The position numbers and the translations under genes are program-made. A DNA stretch of 6,331 nt, taken from positions 1 to 6,331 of the forward strand of contig JAUYMQ010000524.1 in the NCBI GenBank assembly GCA_030698575.1. The letters are read 5' to 3'. Positions 1 to 1,403 of the stretch are shown piece by piece (the stretch's first letter is position 1; each line of letters opens with the position of its first letter). The notes beneath the pieces are model-generated. The model had not been told where the DNA came from, made no database searches, and saw only the letters and a program-made list of their open reading frames with translations. This DNA comes from Deltaproteobacteria bacterium. Lineage in GTDB: Bacteria > JAUYMQ01.

Positions 1-127
1 CCGCGGTTTCGCTCCCCGCTTCTTTCAGCGACGGCCTCGCGACCTCCGCCTTACGGTTTGCTTGGGTCCCCGCGACCAGGTTCCCGGAGGACTTGCACCT
101 CCAAGTCGAAGCCCATGCTGGGCACAC
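1..127 (-). mobile_element. 5' end of a group IIC intron (domain I, partial, runs off left edge)
   Basis: On the minus strand, position 127 begins GTGTGCCC, matching the GUGYG 5' end of group II introns. The first hairpin pairs GCCC with GGGC (111-123). A second pairs GGAGG with CCTCC around a TGCAAGT loop (86-102). Further in come a CCGTAAGG loop, a GCTGAAAGAAGC segment and GCGAAACCGCGG at the window edge. Order and spacing resemble, from memory and without alignment, the Oceanobacillus iheyensis group IIC intron used for crystal structures (GUGUGCCCGGCAUGGG, then UCUGAAGGAAGC, then GGCAAACC). The element starts four bases after a terminator-like stem, the known target preference of class C introns. 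These self-splicing retroelements move by reverse splicing, usually with an intron-encoded reverse transcriptase. Here only the start of domain I is visible, so the rest of the ribozyme, any RT gene, and whether it is active or a 5' fragment remain unknown. No protein is assigned to this stretch. Confidence 0.8.
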
Positions 128-163
128 AAGAGAACGGGCGCGACAGAAAGCCGCGCCCGGTTC
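128..163 (-). terminator. rho-independent terminator of the Grx-TrxB gene, interrupted by the intron
   Basis: On the minus strand, GAACCGGGCGCG (163-152) pairs with CGCGCCCGTTC (142-132), an 11-bp stem with one bulged C and a 9-nt loop. It lies 34 bp past the stop codon of the Grx-TrxB gene. Only TCTT remains on the 3' side before the putative intron starts at 127, so the U-tract is short and probably cut by the insertion. Whether it still terminates efficiently is unclear. Confidence 0.7.
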
Positions 164-197: not shown

Positions 198-1403
198 TCA
201 GTGACTTTGCTCCGCCAGCCAGCGCTCGGCGTCGATGGCCGCCATGCAGCCGGTGCCCGCAGCGGTAACAGCCTGCCGGTAGCGAGGGTCCATTGCATCC
301 CCGCTGGCGAAGACTCCCTCAACGCTGGTGTAGGAGGTCCCACCTTCCACCCGGATATAGCCCACGGGATCCATGTCGAGTTGCCCTTTGAAGAGATCCG
401 TATTGGGCCGGTGCCCGATGGCGACGAACAGCCCCTGGGTCGGGTACTCGGATATTTTGCCTGTCTTCAGATTCTTCAGCTTCGCCCCCGTGACGCCTCC
501 TTCAGGCGTGCCCATCACCTCTTCCACCGCGCTGTCCCAGACGAAGGCGATCTTCTCGTTCTTCATGGCGCGCTCCTGCATGATCTTGCTCGCGCGGAGC
601 TCGCCCCGCCGGTGGACCACGATCACCTTGGTCGCGAATTTGGTGAGGAACAGCGCCTCCTCCATGGCCGTGTCGCCGCCGCCCACGACAACGACTTCCT
701 GTCCACGGAAGAAGAACCCGTCGCAAGTGGCGCAGGCCGAAACCCCGTGCCCCATCAGGCGCTTCTCGCTATCGATTCCCAGCAGCTTGGCCGATGCGCC
801 CGTGGCGATGATGAGGGCGTCGGCCATCAGCCGCCCCTCGTCGCCGATCTCGACGCTGAAGGGGCGTTTCGACAGATCGACCTTTGTCGCGTCTCCCGCG
901 AGCACCCGGGTGCCGAACCGGAGCGCCTGTTTGCGGAACAGTTCCATCATCTCCGGACCCTGAATGCCATCCGGAAAACCGGGATAGTTTTCAACGTCCG
1001 TTGTGATGGTCAGCTGCCCGCCGGGCTGCGACCCTTCGATCACGAACGGCGAGAGTTCCGCCCGGGCCGCGTAGATTGCGGCGGTCCATCCCGCCGGACC
1101 CGTTCCGAGGATGGCCACGCGAACGTGTTCCTCGCGCCGCGCCTTCCTGCTGATTTTCAACATGGGGTCGAGCTTGCCGGAGACGTCGAGCGCGTGGAGC
1201 TCGTCGTAGCCTCCGACGTGAACACCGTCGATGAAGATCTGGGGAATAGTCATGAGCTGCGACCGCGCGATCATCTCATCCTTCTTCTCGGGATGATCGT
1301 GGATGTTGAACTCCTCGAAGGAAACGCCCTTCGATTCGAGCAGCCGCTTGGCGTTCGCGCAGAATGGGCATCCGTAGCCGGTATACATCTCGATGCGTGG
1401 CAT
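198..1403 (-). CDS. glutaredoxin-thioredoxin reductase fusion protein
   Basis: A 401-residue cytoplasmic flavoenzyme expected to pass electrons from NADPH through FAD and a CxxC to a fused glutaredoxin. Residues 1-85 form a glutaredoxin: CPFC at 12-15, the cis-proline motif TIPQIF at 52-57 and GGYDEL at 64-69. After a linker, residues 94-401 are a low-molecular-weight thioredoxin reductase. It shows the FAD-binding GTGPAG at 100-105, PGGQ at 128-131, the redox CATC at 224-227, the NADP-binding [10 protein letters not shown] at 241-250 with HRR at 264-266 (NADPH 2'-phosphate contact), and the FAD motif GVFASGD near 363-369. The frame stays open upstream to an ATG at 1571, but those 56 residues are low-complexity and unlike either domain. 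The ATG at 1403 begins exactly where glutaredoxins do, although its GAGGA lies unusually close, so the start is a family-based choice. The gene is 183 bp from the PLP enzyme gene and is followed by its own terminator. The natural acceptor is unknown: glutathione, a separate thioredoxin or a peroxiredoxin are all possible. Confidence 0.93.

Follow-up and report, generated by a model that had tools for sequence, protein, structure and literature searches.

The locus analysed here raises the question of what occupies the stretch between the end of a TrxB-like gene and the edge of its contig. The window, i.e. the whole stretch of DNA that was analysed, comprises the complete contig C472 with 6,331 bases. 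On its minus strand, a glutaredoxin-thioredoxin reductase (TrxB-like) fusion gene (198..1403) is the host gene upstream of the presumed insertion, as recognised by Pfam matches to Glutaredoxin (residues 4-63, 8.4e-21) and Pyr_redox_2 (residues 95-385, 4.3e-50). The initial annotation had proposed a group IIC intron directly behind the terminator of this gene. Judged from sequence, positions 127-1 of the minus strand almost certainly represent the start of a mobile intron of group IIC (bacterial class C) behind the Grx-TrxB terminator, since the 5' boundary, the terminator site, a repeat in the same genome and homologues elsewhere all agree with this proposal. Base 1 is the contig end and lies inside the intron, and the window thus shows 127 of the ~1,900 nt of this copy.

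An intrinsic terminator hairpin (CGGGCGCGGC TTTCT GTCGCGCCCG; 135..159, minus strand) follows the fusion gene, beginning 38 nt past the stop codon. A terminator-like stem had been noted at 163-132; it was confirmed and placed at 159-135, with 10 pairs, 9 of them G-C, followed by TTCTCTT. The hairpin folds with a minimum free energy of -23.9 kcal/mol (z -3.9), and none of 200 shuffled sequences was equally stable. The T-rich 5' exon tail TTCTCTT (128..134, minus strand), whose site was set by comparison with homologues and which is presumed to contain the IBS1 target sequence, spans the 7 nt between the hairpin and the intron start. The intron starts with GTGTGCCCAGCATGGGC at 127 on the minus strand, 3' of hairpin and tail; GTGTG at 127-123 corresponds to the 5' boundary GUGYG, and homology to a second copy on contig C317 and to distant copies begins there. 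Elsewhere in the window, another strong terminator-like hairpin (GAAGGGGCCCC/GGGGCCCCTTC; 3293-3268, minus strand) was seen 3' of groEL.

The first 127 nt of the intron (1..127, minus strand), corresponding to the 5' part of domain I, were assigned by the exact repeat on C317, by alignment of homologues and by Rfam D1D4-3 matches in these homologues. All sequence motifs initially named in addition to the stem are present, namely GTGTGCCC beginning at 127 on the minus strand, the conserved domain I segment GCTGAAAGAAGC at 29-18 (intron nt 99-110), within which GAARGAAGC hardly varies across the aligned introns, and GCGAAACC at 12-5 on the same strand. Two hairpins are supported by the alignment, GCCC-AGCAT-GGGC (111..123, minus strand; intron nt 5-17) and GGAGG-TGCAAGT-CCTCC (86..102, minus strand; intron nt 26-42), the latter with covarying pairs. 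Folded as a single sequence, the 127 nt have no unusual stability (z -0.7). When 13 introns were aligned here, 18 consensus pairs emerged, 7 of which are preserved by changes on both sides. It is therefore the covariation in the alignment, rather than the single-sequence fold, that supports the domain I structure, and in this way the domain I-like hairpins noted at the outset were borne out. An Rfam search of the window alone gave no D1 covariance match, its only two matches being far under the cut-off. The D1D4-3 match in the homologous locus L093 begins at about intron nt 82, and only about 46 of 170 model positions would lie in the window, so that too little of the D1D4-3 region is present to score. 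The D1 covariance check proposed earlier thus failed for the window alone and succeeded in the homologues, where D1D4-3 scored 93-121 bits.

Complete introns of this kind were detected in two distant metagenome-assembled genomes (MAGs), a Gemmatimonas phototrophica bin (L093) and a Myxococcaceae bin (L085), whose 5' ends share 76% and 74% identity with the window, within a range of 72-76% for distant homologues. In both, a matching 5' end, D1D4-3 (116 bits in L093, 97 bits in L085), a reverse transcriptase (RT) and a 3' end follow each other in the right order within about 1.9 kb. The RT is split over two frames in L093 and open over 459 aa in L085, and L093 additionally matches the domain V model. 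The ribozyme core and possible RT that had been expected beyond the left edge are thus carried by full-length homologues. These observations also bear on whether the 127 nt could be a non-intron repeat, i.e. another terminator-associated mobile sequence with a chance likeness to domain I. The missing direct Rfam match and the ordinary single-sequence fold would be compatible with such a repeat, but the 127 nt align collinearly with complete group II introns carrying D1D4-3, RT and domain V, which together with the covariation makes it extremely improbable, and in practice the homologues already refute it.

A search of the own genome revealed that the 127 nt of the window are repeated at C317:133-7 with 0 mismatches; the alignment was reported as 129 nt, as two T's just upstream match by chance. 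The C317 copy is preceded by a quite different hairpin (CAGGGCAGCGG/CCGCTGCCCTG), then TTTCATTT, and this duplication of the 5' end behind an unrelated terminator accords with the proposed insertion at a terminator. Exact repeat and distant homologues together argue that the resemblance to an intron is not due to chance. The two copies, identical over 127 nt, suggest a recent spread of the intron. A relic of about 34 nt at 94% identity, with a damaged start GTCTG, was found behind a third hairpin at C387:3411-3377, adjoining a gene which we take to encode an aldehyde ferredoxin oxidoreductase-like protein. With at most one mismatch, the 17-nt start pattern occurs at three sites of the genome only (the window, C317 and C387). 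As side observations, many copies of a GCATGTCATTGCGAGGAGC repeat lie on C317 between the intron-site terminator and the next genes (L008:170-560), and on C387 a second hairpin (ACCTGG/CCAGGT), then CTTCATTTGGTCTCCG, is located about 60 nt beyond the 34-nt relic (L013:2378-2412).

Because the contig ends at base 1, the proposed check for domain V was adapted and carried out on the rest of the genome. Group II domain V (RF00029 Intron_gpII) was matched above the gathering cut-off at three contig ends, C167:4285-4363, C481:61-139 and C634:7478-7556. These share an identical 44-nt domain V core (GAACCGCCGGATGCGGACCCGCATGTCCGGTGGTGTGGGAGGGG), which has no further occurrence in the genome when up to 3 mismatches are allowed, and the common 3' end ...CTATCCCGAT (...CCCGAT). 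The sequences after this end differ and represent different exons, which gives at least three insertions in the genome. The domain V triad at these ends, which lie on contigs separate from the window copy, is CGC, the form characteristic of IIC introns. The 3' type of C481 and C634 is 87% identical to L093 and 80% to L085, the same two MAGs that resemble the window 5' end; through this similarity, ends on separate contigs can be paired, and we infer that the window 5' end and a C481/C634-type 3' end belong together. The introns of L093 and L085 have the same order of parts, in different hosts; in these copies D1 and RT are assembled, whereas the window copy ends before them.

A further reading of the locus is that of a truncated relic, in which nothing of a IIC intron but its 5' part has survived at trxB. 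A precedent exists in the same genome on C387, with its 34 nt and mutated GTCTG start behind a terminator, and the remainder of the window copy lies outside the assembled sequence. Against this, the window copy is intact as far as the contig reaches and agrees with C317 at all of its 127 nt. Moreover, C472 and C317 break off after 127-133 nt of the repeat, and C167, C481 and C634 all start about 139 nt ahead of the intron 3' end, a pattern that would fit an assembler halting at a longer common repeat. A relic therefore appears unlikely, and we infer that the intron at trxB is probably complete and may splice or move.

The genome contains a single RT, which occupies C132 from about 3151 up to the end of the contig. 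Matches to TIGR04416 and to Pfam RVT_1 and GIIM identify it as a group II RT/maturase fragment whose N-terminal part is missing. This RT is 92% identical to that of L014 (MAG DeMMO2_54) and 49% to that of L085. It was rejected as the RT of the window intron, since the intron of L014, whose RT is its closest relative, has a 5' end just 73% like the window, and this from nt 22 on. Most likely the C132 RT belongs to a second intron sub-lineage, as judged by these identities, and the RT of the window's intron family is absent from the assembly. Directly upstream of the broken gene (L009:2035-3165) lies what we take to be an IS630-like transposase, which suggests disruption of this gene by an insertion sequence. 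It also seems very improbable that at trxB just a 5' fragment was retained, or an intron lacking an RT of its own, which the RT of the C132 sub-lineage would mobilise in trans and which would alter the 3' end of the trxB transcript via readthrough and splicing. For the RT of L085, the closest solved structure is the GsI-IIC RT (2.2e-135), and its domains are RVT_1 and GIIM only, with no endonuclease domain match.

In its features, the intron resembles the known group IIC or bacterial class C (B.h.I1, Geobacillus GsI-IIC): the window copy has the same GTGYG start and a site directly behind an intrinsic terminator, the separate 3' ends of the own genome have the CGC triad in domain V and a similar ...AT end, and the complete homologues have a length of about 1.9 kb and, in L085, an RT with maturase domain but without endonuclease match. 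Likewise, Rfam RF02001 (group-II-D1D4-3) matches the homologues and RF00029 the own genome's 3' ends. It differs from the class in sequence only, and its host is from a lineage with domain-level relatives only among the genomes searched. Membership is solid, and the element represents one more copy of an ordinary mobile intron that is already well described. With it, the hosts of IIC introns that target terminators gain a member of a poorly sampled lineage of bacteria, but no new principle emerges; it would explain the break points of C472 and at least four other contigs of the assembly, and some 130 nt at the edge of a contig were enough to recognise its 5' end.

Insertion of IIC introns at intrinsic terminators is known (PMC4424553), and it is well documented that class C introns prefer positions immediately 3' of rho-independent terminators (PMC8919778). 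By analogy with this class, the intron RNA and its RT would recognise the terminator hairpin and T-rich tail, and the RNA would reverse-splice into the DNA behind the terminator and then be copied by the RT. As suggested initially, an intron at this position might also alter the extent of trxB transcripts. For 57 of 62 distinct related 5' ends, which were gathered through similarity of the RT or of the 5' end and are not independent because sibling copies are included, the preceding 40 nt rank by fold stability within the top 5% of all 40-mers from the own locus. At four loci (L087:1036, L088:2049, L090:2048 and L092:978) the introns are preceded by GTT...AACGT/AACGC ends, which are attC-like rather than terminators; these sites resemble attC, which besides intrinsic terminators is the second target known for IIC introns (PMC4424553), as for IIC-attC introns. 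Among 97 other genomes, all of them related at domain level only, no close relative with a vacant trxB site was found. An empty-site comparison by TrxB was discarded, as the proteins of the intron-bearing MAGs and of genome G051 are at most 58% identical and thus too distant.

In the G051 homologues, EBS1 lies at about intron nt 179, i.e. past the contig end of the window copy. A general co-divergence of EBS1 and target was not upheld, as Cohnella and Brevibacillus copies (>99% identical) do not vary in any column close to where EBS1 is expected. The sibling IIC introns of G051 (L102-L107) are 94-95% identical to copy a and vary in four neighbouring columns of the EBS1 loop (intron nt ~179-184). 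Two of five siblings gave no match between EBS1 and their own flanking IBS1; in the other three the two pair (CCAT/ATGG, GAGTG/CACTC and ACAG/CTGT), as if EBS1 had diverged together with its target in these siblings.
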